Origin: Fibrobacter sp. UWR4
GTDB taxonomy: Bacteria; Fibrobacterota; Fibrobacteria; Fibrobacterales; Fibrobacteraceae
Length of the DNA stretch: 64,000 nt
NCBI RefSeq assembly: GCF_003149045.1
Contig: NZ_QGDU01000001.1
Coordinates: 190,458-254,457, forward strand
Direction: 5' to 3'
Made by a program: the position numbers and the translations under genes. The first letter of the stretch is position 1. The number at the start of each line of letters is the position of its first letter. This document shows positions 2,090-36,003 of this stretch, one piece after another. The notes beneath the pieces were generated by a model. That model searched no databases and was not told the origin of the DNA. It saw nothing but the letters and a program-made list of their open reading frames with translations.

Positions 2090-2839
2090 TTACAGACCGC
2101 TCAGTTCGCGGGCCTTGGCTTCCACGCCTGCGGTGTCCTTCGGGTCCTTCAGCATGATGTTCACGAAAACGGAACCTGCGACAACTGCATGCACGTGCTT
2201 ACAGAGAACCTTGGACTGTTCGCCGGTACGAATACCGAAACCGCCAAGCACCTTTGCGCCGCCCTTGCCCACGGTGTCCAGGAAGTCGAGAGTTGCCTGG
2301 TCGATGACCGTCTGGGAGCCGGTAGTACCTGCGCGAAGTGCGGCGTAGATGTACTTGAAACTCTTGGATGCCATTTCTTCGAGGCGAGCCTTGGTCATGC
2401 TGGGGGCTGCCACCGGAATGTTATCCATGCCGTACTTGGCGCAAGCGGCGGTGAGACCTTCGTCGTTATCGAAGGGAAGGTCCGGAATGATGCATGCGCT
2501 AACGCCTGCGTCCTTGCACATCTTCACGAAGTTTTCAACGCCCGGAGTAAATGCCAGGGAGCCGTAAGTCATGATGTAGATGGGGGTGTCCGGATGCATG
2601 TCGTGAATCTTCTTCACGATTTCAAGACCCTGCTTGGTGGAGTAGCCTTTTTCCAAAGCTACGGTAGAAGCGGTCTGAATAGCGGGACCGTCGGCGCTGG
2701 GGTCGCTAAAGGCCAACTGAATTTCCAGAATGGAAGCACCACCCTTAACGAGAGCGTCTGCGATGGCAATAGAAGTTTCACCGTCGGGAAAACCGGCGAT
2801 CAAATGGGACATTAAAGTTATCGGAGCTTTAGTTTGCAT
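2090..2839 (-). CDS. trpA: Tryptophan synthase alpha chain
   Basis: The 249-residue protein cleaves indole-3-glycerol phosphate to indole, which is channelled to TrpB. The active-site region reads LEIQLAFSDPSADGP, with the two catalytic acids at Glu39 and Asp50, and the phosphate-binding GGFGIRT is near residue 199. The length is slightly short of the usual 260-270 residues but the TIM-barrel motifs are complete. It follows trpB on the same strand after a 112-bp gap that holds a TAGGGT-type repeat pair. Expression probably depends on the attenuated promoter upstream of trpB. No strong Shine-Dalgarno sequence was seen before the ATG. Confidence 0.97.
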   Translation of the reverse strand: MQTKAPITLMSHLIAGFPDGETSIAIADALVKGGASILEIQLAFSDPSADGPAIQTASTVALEKGYSTKQGLEIVKKIHDMHPDTPIYIMTYGSLAFTPGVENFVKMCKDAGVSACIIPDLPFDNDEGLTAACAKYGMDNIPVAAPSMTKARLEEMASKSFKYIYAALRAGTTGSQTVIDQATLDFLDTVGKGGAKVLGGFGIRTGEQSKVLCKHVHAVVAGSVFVNIMLKDPKDTAGVEAKARELSGL

Positions 2840-2951: not shown

Positions 2952-4232
2952 CTATTTATTCATAATCTCTGCGTCGTGGATGTCCTCGTTGTTTTCAAGG
3001 CGCTTCAGTTCAGCTGCCAGGAATTCCTTCCACTTTTCGGGGCGGAACACAGGGCTCGTGATGAAGATGTCCTTGTCGCCGCGGCCACTCATGTTGATGA
3101 TGATGGCCTTGTCCTTGGGGAATTCCTTGGCGATCTTCATGGCGGCGGCACCGGCGTGGGAACTTTCAAGAGCAAAGAGAATGCCTTCGTTCTTGGCGAA
3201 GAAGTTCACGGCTTCCAATGCTTCCTTGTCCAGAATGCTGGTGAATTCCACGCGGCCACATTCGCCGAGGGCTGCAAGCTGCGGGCCAATGCCCATGTAG
3301 TCGAGACCTGCGGAAATGGAGCGTGTGGGCTGAGACTGACCGTCGTCATCTACCAGGAACTTGCTCTTGTAACCCTGAACGATGCCCACCTTGGCGGCAT
3401 TGCCCACCATGCGGGCTGCGTTTTCGCCCAGCTTCGGGCCTACGCCACCGGCTTCTGCGCCGATAAGACGAACGTTCGGATTTTCGATAAACGGGGTGAA
3501 CACGCCGATGGAGTTGGAACCACCGCCTACGCAAGCCACGATGGCTGCAATGTCGATGTTGCGTTCTGCAGCCTGGCGCTTTACTTCTTCACCGATGATG
3601 CTCTGGAAAGTACGGACGATATCGGGGAACGGTGCGGGGCCGAGAGCGGAACCCAGAACGTAGTGGGTGGTAGCGAAGTTGGTTGCCCAGTCGCGCATGG
3701 CTTCGTTCACCGCGTCCTTCAAGGTGCGGCTACCGCTGGTGACAGGCACCACCTTGGCGCCGTAAAGCTCCATGGTGGCAACGTTGGGCTGCTGACGACG
3801 AACATCCACTTCGCCCATGTAAACGATACATTCAAGACCAAGCTTTGCACAAGCGGCTGCAGTGGCGAGACCATGCTGGCCAGCGCCAGTTTCTGCGATA
3901 ATACGGGTCTTGCCCATCTTCTTTGCCAAGAGGCACTGACCGATGGCGTTGTTAATCTTGTGGGCGCCTGTGTTTGCAAGACCTTCCAGCTTGATGTAGA
4001 TCTGTGCGCCGCCCAGAAGTTCTGTTGCGGTAGGGGCATAGTACAGCGGAGTTTCGCGGCCGATGTAGTCGCGCTGGATAATTCGCAATTCTTCCAGGAA
4101 TTCCGGATCCTTGATGTACTTGTTGAAGGCTTCTTCAAGATCGTCCAGAGGGCGACGGATGATTTCGGCTACATACTTGCCGCCGAACTTGTCGAAAAAG
4201 CCGTTATCTGATTCTACCAGAGATTTTGCCAT
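2952..4232 (-). CDS. trpB: Tryptophan synthase beta chain
   Basis: The 426-residue PLP enzyme condenses indole with serine to make tryptophan. The PLP lysine lies in LANTGAHKINNAIG (Lys92), the catalytic glutamate in AETGAGQHG, and the PLP-phosphate loop is CVGGGSNSIG. The protein is somewhat longer than typical TrpB (about 400) through a charged C-terminal tail (EFLAAELKRLENNEDIHDAEIMNK region). AGAGG lies 8 nt before the ATG. Transcription should start at the promoter at 4629-4657 and pass through the Trp attenuator, followed by about 250 nt of untranslated leader with dispersed repeats. trpA follows. Confidence 0.98.
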   Translation of the reverse strand: MAKSLVESDNGFFDKFGGKYVAEIIRRPLDDLEEAFNKYIKDPEFLEELRIIQRDYIGRETPLYYAPTATELLGGAQIYIKLEGLANTGAHKINNAIGQCLLAKKMGKTRIIAETGAGQHGLATAAACAKLGLECIVYMGEVDVRRQQPNVATMELYGAKVVPVTSGSRTLKDAVNEAMRDWATNFATTHYVLGSALGPAPFPDIVRTFQSIIGEEVKRQAAERNIDIAAIVACVGGGSNSIGVFTPFIENPNVRLIGAEAGGVGPKLGENAARMVGNAAKVGIVQGYKSKFLVDDDGQSQPTRSISAGLDYMGIGPQLAALGECGRVEFTSILDKEALEAVNFFAKNEGILFALESSHAGAAAMKIAKEFPKDKAIIINMSGRGDKDIFITSPVFRPEKWKEFLAAELKRLENNEDIHDAEIMNK

Positions 4233-4380: not shown

Positions 4381-4488
4381 CTCGCGGGCGCGCAACTCTC
4401 AAAATGACATTTTGTTTTAAACGCCGTAAAAATAGCTTTTTTAGGCGCAGGCCCTGGATTACCTGGAGGATTCTAAATGTCTTTGGGG

Positions 4489-4520
4489 AAAAATAAAAGC
4501 CTCCAGGGAGTCTGGAAGCC
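4489..4520 (-). terminator. Trp attenuator terminator hairpin (segments 3:4) before trpB
   Basis: On the minus strand GGCTTCCAG, loop ACTCC, CTGGAGGC is followed by TTTTATTTTT. The 5' arm contains CCAGACTC, which can instead pair with GAGTCTGG (about 4550-4557) just downstream of the leader peptide, giving an antiterminator. A third pairing between the end of the leader ORF (CGGGCTCTA) and TAGAGTCTG releases the terminator. Past the U-tract, TCCTCCAGG is complementary to segment 4 and is also conserved in the trpE copy. Confidence 0.88.
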
Positions 4521-4562
4521 TTTTGCCTTGATCAACTATACTTGCAAAAACCAGACTCTATG

Positions 4563-4628: not shown

Positions 4629-4657
4629 AATTTATGAATATCACAAAAAATTGGCAA
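4629..4657 (-). promoter_or_regulatory. Promoter of the trpBA transcript
   Basis: On the minus strand TTGCCA (4657-4652), a 17-bp spacer and TAAATT (4634-4629). The same boxes with the same spacing occur before the trpE leader. The predicted start would fall at or within a base or two of the leader-peptide ATG. Confidence 0.7.
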
Positions 4658-4707
4658 GGGAATGGGGAGGAATTATAGGGAAAATTTGCTGGAGGTAAGC
4701 TGTAGTT

Positions 4708-4738
4708 CCCCCAGGTTCAAAAAGAGTCTCTATAGGTC
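4708..4738 (+). repeat. Cassette-boundary stem-loop repeat, copy A
   Basis: CCCCCAGGTTC, AAAAA, GAGTC, then TCTATAGG. The arm pair GGTTC/GAGTC pairs with wobbles. The stop codon of the gene at 4730-5236 lies inside it. Preceding AAGCTGTAGTT is shared with copies C and H. Confidence 0.7.
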
Positions 4739-5236
4739 TTTAGGGTTAATTACGTCTTTAGGGTTAATTGATTCTTCGGAACTTTGGCTGTACCACCAGT
4801 CTTTAGGGTTAATTACGTCTTTAGGGTTAATTGATAGTTTAAAGTCTTTGATATTTTCGAAAGCAATGAATTTATATAGGTCTTTGAAAGATTTTGAAAT
4901 GAAAAAAATAAGATATACATAGACGACAAGTAACATAAGAAAGACGGTGCCTAAAAGGATGAAGGGGGTGAAATATGTAAGGATATGTCTATTATTGATT
5001 GATATAAAAGGCTCGTTTTTTAGCTCATCACCTATTAGAATTTTGGCAAGAAAGTTAGTAGGTTTGACTAGGATATGTGCTAAAATAGAGTATAGGATAA
5101 TTAATAGGACAATTAATAGGACAATGAAAAGGAATATAGAATTTAAGTTAAGCTTAGAAAAAACTTTAGGAAGAATCGCTATGAGACTATGAATTAAAAT
5201 TGAACCCAATTTCGGTTTCTCCTTTAGTGTTATCAC
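4730..5236 (-). CDS. Putative membrane protein with C-terminal INPKD repeats
   Basis: The 168-residue product is not recognised. It has two strongly hydrophobic stretches, about residues 31-56 and 90-114, and a C-terminus containing four copies of INPKD (INPKDVINPKD twice), which come from four copies of TCTTTAGGGTTAATT in the DNA at 4737-4832. The start is a GTG at 5236 that overlaps the 3' end of the upstream lipoprotein gene by 50 bp, so translation may be coupled. The frame is AT-rich compared with the core genes. It is the last of four minus-strand genes in the first cassette-like unit. Confidence that it is expressed is moderate. Confidence 0.5.
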   Translation of the reverse strand: MITLKEKPKLGSILIHSLIAILPKVFSKLNLNSIFLFIVLLIVLLIILYSILAHILVKPTNFLAKILIGDELKNEPFISINNRHILTYFTPFILLGTVFLMLLVVYVYLIFFISKSFKDLYKFIAFENIKDFKLSINPKDVINPKDWWYSQSSEESINPKDVINPKDL

Positions 5237-30948: not shown

Positions 30949-32544
30949 TTAGGAATTACTAGCAACCTTCACTGCTTCGATGGTCTTCAGTACGGAGCCG
31001 TCTTCGATTGCCTTCATGGCCATGTCGTAGCCTTCCTTGATGGTGGCGGCCTTCTTGCTAATGTAGAGGGCGGCGCCAGCGTTCAGGGCGCAAGCGTACT
31101 TGATGCCCGGACGGCCCTTGCCGTTCAACATGTCCAGACCCAGCTTGAAGTTTTCTTCGCCGGTGCCACCTGCCAAGTCGTCTTCATCCACAGCGGGGAT
31201 GCCGAAGTCCTTGGGGTCGATGCGGTAAGTCTTGTACACGCCATCTTCCAGAATTTCTGCGATGGTGGTGGGGACGCAGGGAGAAATTTCATCGTAGCCG
31301 TCGTCGCTCAAGGCTACCATGACACGCTTTGCACCCAGGGCATGTGCTGCCTTGGTAAAGGGTTCCAGCACAGCTTCGCTGTAAACGCCCATGCAAAGGT
31401 ACTTGGCTTCTGCCGGGTTGGTGAGAGGTCCGATGAGGTTCATGATGGTCTTGATGCCAAGGCACTGGCGGACAGGACCTGCGAAACGCATGGCGCTGTG
31501 ATAGACGGGAGCCATGAGGAAGGCGAAGCCGGTCTTCTGCAGAACTTCTGCAGCCTTTTCCGGAGTCATGTCCAGCTTGAAGCCTGCGGCGGTGTAGAAG
31601 TTTGCTGCACCGGACTTGCTGGAAACGGCGCGGTTGCCGTGCTTTGCAATCTTACAACCGCAGGTTGCTGCGATAAGGCCAGACATGGAGCTCACATTGA
31701 AGCTGCCCTTGCCGTCGCCACCGGTACCCACGATGTCGGTGAGCTCGTCGCCAGCAATGGGGAACTTGCGCTTCTTACGGCTGAGCACTGCGGCGCAGCC
31801 TGCGATTTCGTCGGCCACGGGACCCTTGCAGGAAAGGCCAGTAAGGATAGCAGCCATCTGGCGTTCGTCCATGATGCCGTCGGTCAGGTCGTCCATGAAC
31901 ATTTCAGCAGTTTCGCGAGTCAGGTCCTTGCCAACCATGAGGGTGTTCAGGATGCCGCGAACGTCCAGAGGTTCGCGACGGTAGTTGAGGAATGCCTTGA
32001 AGAATTCGGCTTCCTTGCCGCTGGCGATGGATTCCGGGTGGAACTGTACGCCTTCGATATCCATGGTCTTGTGACGGATGCCCATGATGTCGCCGTCGTC
32101 GGCGCGGGCGGTCACTTCGAATTCCGGCGGGAGGGTAGATTCGTCGATAACCAGGCTGTGGTAGCGGGTGAAGGGGTTCTTCTTGCCGATGGTGCGGAAG
32201 AGGCCGCGGCCGTCGGTGTTGATTTCTTCGACGATGCCGTGCTTGATGAACTTTGCGCCTACGATCTTTGCGCCGAAGGCGTAACCGATGGCCTGGTGAC
32301 CAAGGCACACGCCCAGAATGGGGAGCTTGCCTGCGAAGTGCTTGATGGCTTCAACAGAAATGCCTGCGTCTTCGGGGCGGCCGGGGCCCGGGCTTACAAT
32401 GAGGCGGCTGGGGTTCAGTACTTCGATGTCAGCGATGGTGCATTCCTTGCTGCGGAGCACGCGGATTTCTTCGTTGGTGATCTTGGCCAGAGCCTGGTAA
32501 ACGTTATAAGTGAAAGAATCGTAGTTGTCAATTAAAACGATCAT
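30949..32544 (-). CDS. trpGD: Anthranilate synthase amidotransferase / anthranilate phosphoribosyltransferase fusion
   Basis: The 531-residue fusion supplies ammonia to TrpE and transfers anthranilate to PRPP. TrpG (about 1-195) has the nucleophile in LGVCLGHQ (Cys80) and the His-Glu pair in QFHPES (His169, Glu171). TrpD (about 197-531) has the PRPP loop GTGGDGKGSFN (273-283), a KHGNRAVSSKSGAAN block and GPLTNPA. The ATG at 32544, with AGGA 6 nt upstream, gives the usual MIVLIDNYDSFTYN start. It follows trpE by about 166 bp containing GC-rich repeats, and should be transcribed from the attenuated trpE promoter. Confidence 0.96.
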   Translation of the reverse strand: MIVLIDNYDSFTYNVYQALAKITNEEIRVLRSKECTIADIEVLNPSRLIVSPGPGRPEDAGISVEAIKHFAGKLPILGVCLGHQAIGYAFGAKIVGAKFIKHGIVEEINTDGRGLFRTIGKKNPFTRYHSLVIDESTLPPEFEVTARADDGDIMGIRHKTMDIEGVQFHPESIASGKEAEFFKAFLNYRREPLDVRGILNTLMVGKDLTRETAEMFMDDLTDGIMDERQMAAILTGLSCKGPVADEIAGCAAVLSRKKRKFPIAGDELTDIVGTGGDGKGSFNVSSMSGLIAATCGCKIAKHGNRAVSSKSGAANFYTAAGFKLDMTPEKAAEVLQKTGFAFLMAPVYHSAMRFAGPVRQCLGIKTIMNLIGPLTNPAEAKYLCMGVYSEAVLEPFTKAAHALGAKRVMVALSDDGYDEISPCVPTTIAEILEDGVYKTYRIDPKDFGIPAVDEDDLAGGTGEENFKLGLDMLNGKGRPGIKYACALNAGAALYISKKAATIKEGYDMAMKAIEDGSVLKTIEAVKVASNS

Positions 32545-32710
32545 GATAAATCCTTTAGGTTCGAGGTTTGAGGTCGTTCGCCCCACAAGGGGGCTCTCTT
32601 TGAGGGCGGCCTTCGGCCTTTGAGTTTTAAGTTACGCGGCGTAGCCGCCATTATCTAGCTCAAAGCGCCTTCGGCGCGACCTCGTAGCTGAAAGCGTAGC
32701 GACCTCGCGC
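32545..32710. repeat. GC-rich repeats between trpE and trpGD
   Basis: Includes AGGTTCGAGGTTTGAGGTCG (32556), GGCGGCCTTCGGCCTTTGAG and CGCCTTCGGCGCGACCTCG near 32668, several with TTCG loops. No gene was found. They could affect readthrough from trpE to trpGD. Confidence 0.5.
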
Positions 32711-34123
32711 CTACTTGCTTCCTTCCAGGACTGCGCGGACAGCGCCCAGCTTTTCGTTAGTTTCTTCAAATTCGCGTTCTGCGTTGGAGGCGGCCACAAT
32801 GCCACCACCAGCCTGCAGGCTAATCTTCTTGCCCTGCTTGAGGCAGCAACGGATAGAAATGCAGAAGTCCAGGTCGCCATCGGATTCGATGTAGCCCACG
32901 GCGCCAGCGTAGAAACGGCGCTTGACCTTTTCCAGGCCAGAAAGGATTTCGATGGCGCTGATCTTGGGAGCGCCGCTCACCGTACCTGCGGGGAAACTGG
33001 AACGGAGCACTTCGATAGACTTCTTGAGGGGGCTGACCTTGCCTTGGACGTCGGAAACCAGGTGGATCACATGGCTGTACTTTTCGCATTCCATGTACTT
33101 TACGGTGTCAACAGTGCCGGCGGAGCAGACGCGGCCCAGGTCGTTACGAGCCAAGTCAACCAGCATCAGGTGTTCTGCGCGTTCCTTGGGGTCGGCCTTC
33201 AGTTCCTTCATCAATTCTTCATCTTCCAGGTCGTTCTTGCCGCGGCGGCGGGTACCTGCGATGGGGTGGATGGTGGCAATACCGTCACGGACGCGTACCA
33301 AGCTTTCTGGAGATGCGCCAATGAACTGGTGGGTACCGTAATCCAGGTAGAACATGTACGGAGACGGGTTCACGGAACGGAGACGGCGGTAAATGTCCAG
33401 AGCCTCGATGTCGCTTTCGAACTGGATGCGGCGAGAAGGCACGGCCTGGACGATGTCGCCGGCCACGATGTGCTTCTGAAGTTCCACCACCTTGGCGGAG
33501 TATTCTTCCTTGGACTTGGAAAGATCGGTAACGGTAACGCCCTTGGCCACTTCCTGTTCCGGAGCCAGGTAGCTGAAGTCCATGTCGGCCAGACGCTTCT
33601 TCACGTTGTTGATGGCGGCCGGCAGGTCAATCTGGTGTTCTTCATAGTTCAGAGCGAACAGGTGAAGCTTTTCGGTGTAGTGGTCGAACACGATGTAGAT
33701 GTGGCCCACCATGAATTCAGCTTCAGGAATGTTCAGTTCATCCACCTGGGGTGCCAGGTGAATGGTATCGCAGCGTGCGCAGAATTCGTAACCCAGGTAG
33801 CCCACGCCAGAGGAGGGAATGGGAATCTGGTTAGGAGGCACGGTGTTTTCTGCAGAAATCTTCAGGAGGGCATCCAGGATATCGCCTTCGCCTTCCTTGA
33901 GGAATTCCTTTTCCTGACCGTCAACCACGATGGTCACGTTCTTTTCGTTCTGGCGAAGACGGAAACCTTCGTCCACCATGAGGGTGGAATAGCGGCTCTT
34001 GCCATGGGCAAAGCTTGCGGATTCAAAGATTGCCTTTGCACCCAGTTTCTTACCCAGGGAGAAAGGTGTATAACGTTCGCCGGGGAGGGCAACGTAGATG
34101 CTATCGGTACGAGGTTCTGTCAT
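32711..34123 (-). CDS. trpE: Anthranilate synthase component I
   Basis: The 470-residue enzyme makes anthranilate from chorismate with ammonia from TrpG. Conserved chorismate-binding blocks are visible: VQAVPSRR, GASPESLVR, HPIAGTRRRG, LVDLARNDLGRV, FPAGTVSGAPK and LQAGGGIVAAS. An N-terminal IFESA (about residues 33-37) lies where the feedback-binding LLES motif is found in other TrpE, so tryptophan inhibition is plausible. It is the first gene of the trpE-GD block and is preceded by a leader with a Trp attenuator; about 165 nt separate the attenuator U-tract from the start. Confidence 0.97.
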   Translation of the reverse strand: MTEPRTDSIYVALPGERYTPFSLGKKLGAKAIFESASFAHGKSRYSTLMVDEGFRLRQNEKNVTIVVDGQEKEFLKEGEGDILDALLKISAENTVPPNQIPIPSSGVGYLGYEFCARCDTIHLAPQVDELNIPEAEFMVGHIYIVFDHYTEKLHLFALNYEEHQIDLPAAINNVKKRLADMDFSYLAPEQEVAKGVTVTDLSKSKEEYSAKVVELQKHIVAGDIVQAVPSRRIQFESDIEALDIYRRLRSVNPSPYMFYLDYGTHQFIGASPESLVRVRDGIATIHPIAGTRRRGKNDLEDEELMKELKADPKERAEHLMLVDLARNDLGRVCSAGTVDTVKYMECEKYSHVIHLVSDVQGKVSPLKKSIEVLRSSFPAGTVSGAPKISAIEILSGLEKVKRRFYAGAVGYIESDGDLDFCISIRCCLKQGKKISLQAGGGIVAASNAEREFEETNEKLGAVRAVLEGSK

Positions 34124-34299
34124 TTTTCAATCCTCTGTTTTTCTTCGTCACCCTGAGTGAAACGAAGGGTCCAGTGCGGAATGGATTCTTCGCTGCGCTC
34201 AGAATGACGCTTTTACTTCTAAAAAATAGCTTTTCAGGCGCTGGCTTACTGGCGGCACGGATCGCGTTCACCGTCCTGGAGGATTTCAAATGTAAGGGG

Positions 34300-34331
34300 A
34301 AAAATAAAAGCCTCCAGGGAGTCTGGAAGCC
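34300..34331 (-). terminator. Trp attenuator terminator hairpin (segments 3:4) before trpE
   Basis: Minus strand GGCTTCCAG, loop ACTCC, CTGGAGGC then TTTTATTTTT, identical to the trpB copy. The competing antiterminator is GAGTCTGG (about 34361-34368) with CCAGACTC in the 5' arm (8 bp). The protecting hairpin CAGACTC / GAGTCTG (7 bp, perfect here) begins directly after the tandem Trp codons. Confidence 0.9.
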
Positions 34332-34373
34332 TTTGCCTTGATTAAATATACGTGCAAAAAACCAGACTCAATG

Positions 34374-34433
34374 TTAGAGTCTGCGCCACCATCGGCCATC
34401 AAAGTTCTTGCAAAGTACATTAATCATCTTCAT
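34374..34433 (-). CDS. trpL: trp leader peptide upstream of trpE, tandem Trp codons
   Basis: A 19-residue peptide MKMINVLCKNFDGRWWRRL with adjacent UGG codons at positions 15 and 16, followed in the RNA by the 1:2, 2:3 and 3:4 pairings of a classical attenuator. Compared with the trpB copy, codons for Asn5, Val6 and Asp12 differ only synonymously, and Glu9/Lys9 and Gly18/Arg18 differ. The spacing of Trp codons to segment 1 is the same in both. The ATG is about 7 nt past the -10-like box. Confidence 0.92.
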   Translation of the reverse strand: MKMINVLCKNFDGRWWRRL

Positions 34434-34440
34434 GTGCAAA

Positions 34441-34469
34441 AATTTATGAATATCCCTACGGATTGGCAA
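34441..34469 (-). promoter_or_regulatory. Promoter of the trpE-GD transcript
   Basis: TTGCCA (34469-34464), 17-bp spacer, TAAATT (34446-34441) on the minus strand. Boxes and spacing match the trpB promoter although half of the spacer differs, which supports function. Confidence 0.72.
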
Positions 34470-34510
34470 GGGAAAATGCCCGAATTAAATAAAAAATTTC
34501 ATTTCAAATA

Positions 34511-34566: not shown

Positions 34567-36003
34567 CTAGAACGTGAATCCCGTGAACACGTTATTGCTC
34601 AGGAACGGCAGAACCCCAAGTAAAAGGGTCGCAACCATCAGGGCGATAATTGCAAAACGCTGGCGCTTGACCATGCGGATGGGGGATAGTTCTCCTTCTG
34701 CATCGTCTGTCCATGCGCTCTTGATGACTTGCAAGTAGTAGTAAAGAGCCAGGACGTTGTTCAGTACGGCAAATGCAACCACGAAGTAGTGGCCGGTAGA
34801 TGCCCCGCTGAAGAACAGGTGGAACTTACCGAAGAAACCTGCAAGAGGCGGAATGCCGGCAAGGCTGAACATGGCCGCTGCAAGAGCTACGGCAAGTAGG
34901 GTGTTCTGTTTAGAGAGACCGCGGAGAGAATCAAAACTTTCTTCGCGATAGTGACCGATGACGCCGAAGACAAAGAAGGCCAGGTAGTTTGCTACTGCAT
35001 AGACGAAGATGTAGTAGACAATGGCTGTCTTGGTCATTTCCTCAGGACCAAGCAGGGCAATCATGATGTAGCCTGCCTGAGCGATGGAACTGTATGCCAT
35101 AAAGCGGCGGAGTCTGCTCTGCTTCAGTGCGCCCAGGTTTCCCACAAAGAGAGTGACGCAGGCGAGAAGCGCGATGAGAGGTGCTACCTGTTCCTGGATT
35201 GCTGCCAGAGGGCCGTAAATCAGCACCACCAGGAATGCGATTGCTGTTGCCTTGGAGGTTACGGACAGAACGGCGGTCACAGGGGACGGTGCGCCTTCGT
35301 AAACATCCGGAGCCCAGGTGTAGAAGGGGAACAGGGTCAGCTTGAAACCAATTCCGCAGAAGATGAACAGAATTGCAATCCACAGCAGGGGATTGGTACC
35401 GGCGCTGACGGCGGCAAGAATCTGGTCAAAATGGATTGAACCGGCAAAACCGTACAGATAGCTGAAACCGAACAATTCAAATGCGGTTGCTACAGAACCC
35501 ATCAGGATGTATTTGGTGGCTGCCTCGGATCCGTACTGATCCTTCTTGTTCCAGGCGGTCAAGGCGTACATGGGGATGGTCGCCATTTCAAGACCCAGGA
35601 AGAGGGTCAGCATGTCACAGGCGGATACCACGATAAAGCCGCCGAAGGTGGCGAACATCAATGTTCCCACGAATTCAGCGAGATGCATCATGGCGGGCTT
35701 GCCGTCGGCACCATGGTTGAAATAATCCTTGGCAAGCCAGGTCCCAAGAATAGCACTCAGAACGAACACTTCACGCATCAGCACACCGAAGTCGTCCACT
35801 CGCCAGTTGCTCAGGAAATAAGAACCCGAGTTGTTTGTCAGAGGAATCAAATTCAGCAGGATGAAGGTTGCCACCAGGCCCAGGTTGGCGAGGCGCCAGG
35901 GAATGGATGATGATTTCTTGCAAACCAGTCGGGCTCCGATCACCAGGATGGGGAGCACCAGCAGGAGAACGTCGGGAATCAGATAATTGGGAAGAGTATA
36001 CAT
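34567..36003 (-). CDS. nuoN: NADH-quinone oxidoreductase subunit N
   Basis: The 478-residue antiporter-like subunit has about 14 predicted membrane helices, with LFLGLEMATIPMYAL (the conserved transmembrane Glu), a Lys in GIGFKLTLFPFYTWAPDVYEGAP and a second Lys near SVTSKATAIAF. These form the proton path of complex I. It is the last gene of the nuo set, 1 bp after nuoM, and is followed by a terminator. Confidence 0.95.
   Translation of the reverse strand: MYTLPNYLIPDVLLLVLPILVIGARLVCKKSSSIPWRLANLGLVATFILLNLIPLTNNSGSYFLSNWRVDDFGVLMREVFVLSAILGTWLAKDYFNHGADGKPAMMHLAEFVGTLMFATFGGFIVVSACDMLTLFLGLEMATIPMYALTAWNKKDQYGSEAATKYILMGSVATAFELFGFSYLYGFAGSIHFDQILAAVSAGTNPLLWIAILFIFCGIGFKLTLFPFYTWAPDVYEGAPSPVTAVLSVTSKATAIAFLVVLIYGPLAAIQEQVAPLIALLACVTLFVGNLGALKQSRLRRFMAYSSIAQAGYIMIALLGPEEMTKTAIVYYIFVYAVANYLAFFVFGVIGHYREESFDSLRGLSKQNTLLAVALAAAMFSLAGIPPLAGFFGKFHLFFSGASTGHYFVVAFAVLNNVLALYYYLQVIKSAWTDDAEGELSPIRMVKRQRFAIIALMVATLLLGVLPFLSNNVFTGFTF

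Follow-up and report, generated by a model that had tools for sequence, protein, structure and literature searches.

Classical trp attenuators have been described in Proteobacteria and Actinobacteria, and in Corynebacterium diphtheriae candidate attenuators precede both trpB1EDGC and trpB2A (PMC1262725). In Sinorhizobium meliloti, the 5' end of the trpL leader RNA is the AUG itself and trpE is attenuated, with attenuation being found at only trpE(G) among the three trp operons (PMC7298713). For mycobacteria, a leaderless polycysteine short ORF with control codons is given the role of an attenuator (Canestrari 2020, cited in PMC9031893). The mechanism itself, that of the E. coli trp type, is known. 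Some trp attenuator predictions were reportedly extended to Bacteroidetes/Chlorobi by Vitreschak in 2004. A literature search, to which the main reviews did not belong, found no report of trp attenuators in Fibrobacter, and an earlier prediction is possible. Accordingly limited, the lineage, the presence of two copies and the systematic, predicted leaderless design appear to be new.

The locus considered here lies in a stretch of 64,000 nucleotides from Fibrobacter sp. UWR4, in the following called the window. An earlier note on this DNA had claimed a ribosome-mediated trp attenuator upstream of trpE, with a 19-codon ORF ending in GRWWRRL, and this ORF does exist on the minus strand, where it is flanked by nuoN (34567-36003) and trpE (Table 1). 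It leads into the series CAGACTC (segment 1), GAGTCTGG (segment 2), CCAGACTC (segment 3) and CTGGAGGC (segment 4), followed by a T-tract. As in the class of ribosome-mediated trp attenuators, a short ORF with tandem Trp codons near its stop stands upstream of trp genes, and the antiterminator and terminator are mutually exclusive structures sharing segment 3, between which the position of a ribosome can select. The 501 bases scanned contain three terminator-like sites, compared with 0.6 expected, one of the three being the terminator of nuoN. The 1:2 hairpin, which is followed by T6, scores terminator-like in its own right; similar T-tracts after segment 2 also occur in several relatives (L043, L046, L050). 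A palindromic repeat of the type GTCATTCTGAGC...TCAGGGTGAC is situated between each attenuator and its gene (34211-34147 and about 4411-4290) and is missing at the equivalent place in the close relative L026. An Rfam scan of the leader gave no match to RF00513 Trp_leader at E up to 10 and none to any trp or T-box family; a sub-threshold match to Phe_leader (18.5 bits vs 55) lay mainly over the terminator.

Table 1. Positions of the two predicted trp attenuators, of the genes downstream and of the candidate leu leader (window coordinates unless a contig is named).
Feature	Position	Strand	Remark
Predicted promoter: -35 TTGCCA 34469-34464, 17-nt spacer, -10 TAAATT 34446-34441	34441..34469	-	Spacing kept in relatives
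trp leader peptide ORF MKMINVLCKNFDGRWWRRL, then stop	34433-34374	-	19 codons, end GRWWRRL; kept in relatives
Tandem Trp codons UGGUGG, control codons	34386..34391	-	Columns invariant in alignment
Segment 1, CAGACTC	34383-34377	-	Partner: segment 2
1:2 hairpin with the T6 that follows it	34383-34356	-	Terminator-like score
Segment 2, GAGTCTGG	34369-34362	-	Partner: segment 1 or 3; T6 after it
Terminator hairpin 3:4	34334-34306, with U-tract to 34300	-	Hairpin scan, folding
Segment 3, CCAGACTC	34326-34319	-	Antiterminator partner of segment 2; also terminator 5' arm and loop
trpE, anthranilate synthase component I	32711..34123	-	Own Shine-Dalgarno-like AGAGGA
trpGD fusion (glutamine amidotransferase / anthranilate phosphoribosyltransferase)	30949..32586	-	
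Second promoter: TTGCCA, 17 nt, TAAATT	4629..4657	-	6 nt before AUG
Second trp leader peptide ORF MKMINVLCENFDGRWWRGL, then stop	4622-4563	-	DNA 91% identical to first
Second segment 1, CGGGCTC	4572-4566	-	
Second segment 2, GAGTCTGG	4558-4551	-	
Second segment 3, CCAGACTC	4515-4508	-	
Second terminator and U-tract	4488..4522	-	Region including segment 3
trpB, tryptophan synthase beta	2952..4232	-	
trpA, tryptophan synthase alpha	2090..2839	-	
leu leader MKKILDLRLLLCIALRDTEARF (L131/L217)	G000 contig C40, about 4690-4830		Upstream of isopropylmalate synthase gene

It is very probable that the window holds two copies of a ribosome-mediated transcription attenuator, one before trpE-trpGD and one before trpBA. 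In the proposed mechanism, transcription by RNA polymerase would begin at the leader AUG or beside it, giving a leaderless 5' end on which a ribosome would load. When charged tRNA-Trp is scarce, the ribosome would stall on UGGUGG and cover segment 1, whereupon segment 2 would pair with segment 3, the terminator would be blocked and the trp genes would be transcribed. With plentiful tryptophan, a ribosome at the UAA would cover segment 2, 3:4 would form and transcription would stop. If the leader stays untranslated, 1:2 would form, and 3:4 would again terminate.

The RNA folding that the earlier note had named as a check speaks for this switch: the leader (34440 to 34296) folds with z = -3.9 and the 3:4 hairpin with z = -3.5, in both cases with 0 of 200 dinucleotide shuffles being as good, and the predicted states alternate as expected in nine representatives. 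In these folds, the stalled state, modelled by masking segment 1 and leaving off segment 4 as still to be transcribed, gives 2:3, a ribosome at the stop gives the 3:4 terminator, and the ribosome-free RNA gives 3:4, accompanied by 1:2 in most of them. Once segment 4 is included, thermodynamic folding favours 3:4 over 2:3, and the antiterminator therefore depends on forming first. Taken alone, the 2:3 match of the window is equalled by 35 of 3000 linker shuffles and lies within chance for some single sequences (1082/3000 in L060, 588/3000 in L003). Among 21 aligned leaders, 95.2% of the cells of the 2:3 helix are standard-paired, compared with 22-59% when the helix is slid, and its covariation score is reached by none of 500 shuffles, with changes on both sides in only two of the eight pairs in this alignable set. 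Helices were searched independently in each leader. Together with the covariation and the three-state folds, these helices bear out the earlier claim that 1:2, 2:3 and 3:4 exclude one another. The decisive evidence for the predicted switch is its conservation and covariation in relatives.

For this comparison, TrpE was searched in 151 genomes of the phylum, and the DNA upstream of trpE was then examined; the nearest named relatives of the TrpE of the window are those of Fibrobacter MAGs (97% identity). Of the 53 Fibrobacter loci, 51 have a leader with WW or WWW directly before trpE; in the remaining two, where trpE belongs to a trpB-trpA-trpE operon, a WWW leader of the same architecture precedes trpB. 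Such leaders were also found upstream of trpE in 14 loci of other genera and a sister family, including MNYTIITLNGNNWWWRTSKSEYAC, MNFICNNNAWWWQTQ, MNNANLTFRRWWWPL and MKNATIALTRFWWRWNSK. The WWW leaders of the other genera have very different stem sequences and retain the pairings. Thus, the tandem UGG codons and the attenuator expected before trpE recur in Fibrobacter and neighbouring genera in GRWW, RRWW and WWW leaders, and all sequence predictions of the initial claim hold. The partners of the 2:3 helix change together, as in GAGTCTGG/CCAGACTC of the window, ATCGGAGT/GCTCCGAT and GGGCCTGCG/CGCGGGTCC, with further helices in relatives being AGAGTCCGG/TCGGACTCT and GGAGTCTGG/CCGGACTCC. An intrinsic terminator with U-tract precedes the first structural gene, the T-tract being weak in two sister-family loci (L052 and L053). 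A large clade, with the trpE leaders of most Fibrobacter (e.g., L003), has GAGCCCGG as segment 2; throughout this clade, the fourth pair of 1:2 and likewise that of 2:3 thereby becomes an A-C mismatch, which weakens 2:3. When about 1.4 kb before trpE was scanned in other Fibrobacterota classes and in genus g7 of the same family, none of the candidates for a WW leader was convincing. Fibrobacter and Treponema TrpE are 61% identical, and the Treponema relatives have no WW leader within 700 bases. Besides, a Spirochaetia MAG (L187, about 1745-1900), whose TrpE is 51% identical to that of the window, carries the WW leader MNDSIHSNSWWRLISYGRSSVRWT, whose AUG is immediately preceded by TTGACA/17/TAGATT/6 nt and which has a strong hairpin and T7 downstream; it is a possible leaderless trp attenuator.

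The second copy (4622-4485, minus strand) is situated upstream of trpBA, repeats all four segments, and its DNA is 91% identical to the first. Comparing DNA over the whole genome, only these two places match and no third trp leader copy was found; likewise, no leader was seen before trpC/trpF. Most other Fibrobacter have another leader peptide, MKMNSAIRFNRWWWGSTK, before trpB, in an arrangement that follows the same logic, so that trpE-GD and trpBA each carry a predicted attenuator in this genus. The window species and G075 have a trpB copy of the trpE (DGRWW) type, which suggests that this copy arose by duplication or gene conversion.

Nearly all trp leaders have a predicted promoter made up of CCCTTGCCA, about 17 nt and TAnnnT, with 6-7 nt between it and the AUG. 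Among 79 distinct leaders, about 75 show this TTGCC/17/TAnnnT arrangement abutting the leader AUG. In nearly all of the 79 distinct upstream sequences, the AUG follows the start of the -35 element by 35-37 nt and the end of the -10 element by 6-8 nt, with the sequence of the spacer varying; the -35 match is missing in three, including L030, in which the ATG was assigned too early. A Shine-Dalgarno-like 4-mer occurs in none of the 79. Genome-wide, the strict promoter pattern has 11 matches, whereas its reversed control has 5; the trpE, trpB and leuA leaders account for three of the 11. Promoters of the sigma-70 type start transcription about 7 nt after the -10 element. Considering where the -10 element ends, the transcript start is therefore expected at or beside the AUG, and since a Shine-Dalgarno sequence is also lacking, the leader mRNA is probably leaderless.

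The same attenuator could be preceded by an ordinary untranslated 5' leader, with the conserved -35 and -10 elements marking something else or the start lying further upstream, and with 30S initiation proceeding without a Shine-Dalgarno sequence. As a clear Shine-Dalgarno is found in just 20 of 46 proxy genes of the window, its absence alone is no proof of a leaderless start, and many genes resemble the leaders in this respect. Nevertheless, this alternative is unlikely in view of the near-constant spacing to the AUG despite the variable spacer, and of the rarity of the arrangement: a loosely similar promoter stands at the AUG in just two of the 46 proxy genes, and the strict pattern has two matches in the window, only at the two trp leaders.

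The nascent peptide instead of tRNA-Trp charging might stall the ribosome, as Trp-dependent arrest peptides such as TnaC do. Within the genus, leaders keep the C-terminal RWWR(G/R)L, as would suit such a peptide, but the conservation of the R-G/R-L residues is explained by the RNA of segment 1. Between genera, the residues after the Trp codons differ (WWRGL, WWWGSTK, WWWRTSKSEYAC, WWWQTQ, WWWPL) and only the Trp codons are constant. Moreover, antitermination at high Trp would have the wrong sign for biosynthetic genes, which makes an arrest peptide highly improbable. The chance is slimmer still that the region, being 3' of nuoN, is simply the terminator of the upstream nuo operon beside a fortuitous ORF, with no regulation. 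For nuoN has its own separate terminator at 34541-34516, and the leader, Trp codons and pairings stand before trpE or trpB in differing gene neighbourhoods.

Beyond the trp genes, a leucine-rich leader, MKKILDLRLLLCIALRDTEARF, precedes the isopropylmalate synthase gene (leuA) of the window genome, with an abutting promoter of the same kind and a terminator. It is conserved genus-wide (e.g., MKKTLNLLLLLRLACGARF), and its folded states in the window genome fit attenuation, the 2:3 match there being statistically weak (263 of 3000 shuffles as good). It is accordingly named here a candidate leu attenuator. By a simple codon-repeat scan, neither a His leader before hisG nor a Phe leader before the prephenate dehydratase gene was found. 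On a broader hypothesis, to which about even credence is given, the amino-acid attenuators of Fibrobacter would form a standard leaderless module, whose promoter would set the transcript start on the leader AUG and so synchronise ribosome and polymerase from nucleotide 1; this module would have been duplicated and moved among trpE, trpB and leuA, the last of these having leucine codons; the 1:2 hairpin and U-tract of the window species would serve as an extra first terminator when no ribosome loads.

On comparative evidence, classical Trp attenuation is extended to the Fibrobacterota, which degrade cellulose in the rumen and gut and about whose gene regulation little is known. As the leaderless arrangement is predicted for the trpE, trpB and leuA leaders and has been reported for Sinorhizobium trpL and a mycobacterial attenuator, initiation of this kind may be a solution to which attenuators have come repeatedly. 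Moreover, the question of ribosome-polymerase synchronisation becomes testable in a compact system.

Compared with known systems, the Fibrobacter leaders share with the E. coli trp operon attenuator (trpL, RF00513) the short leader with tandem UGG, the 1:2/2:3/3:4 logic, the U-tract and the location before trpE. They differ from it in lacking a match to the Rfam model and a Shine-Dalgarno sequence, in the two copies per genome, the promoter at the AUG and the phylum, and, in the window species, in the T6 following the 1:2 hairpin. The trpLE(G) attenuator of Sinorhizobium meliloti (rnTrpL / peTrpL) is similar in attenuating trpE and in its leaderless start, which is predicted here, whereas this Alphaproteobacterium has an attenuator at trpE(G) only and Fibrobacter at both trpE-GD and trpBA. 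The attenuators of Corynebacterium and Streptomyces are likewise of the classical type with double or triple UGG; in contrast, they belong to Actinobacteria with another gene order, and a leaderless start is not mentioned for them (PMC1262725). The mycobacterial polycysteine short ORFs share the control codons, the role as attenuator and a short ORF with a leaderless start, which is predicted here, but sense cysteine and belong to another phylum and other genes (PMC9031893).
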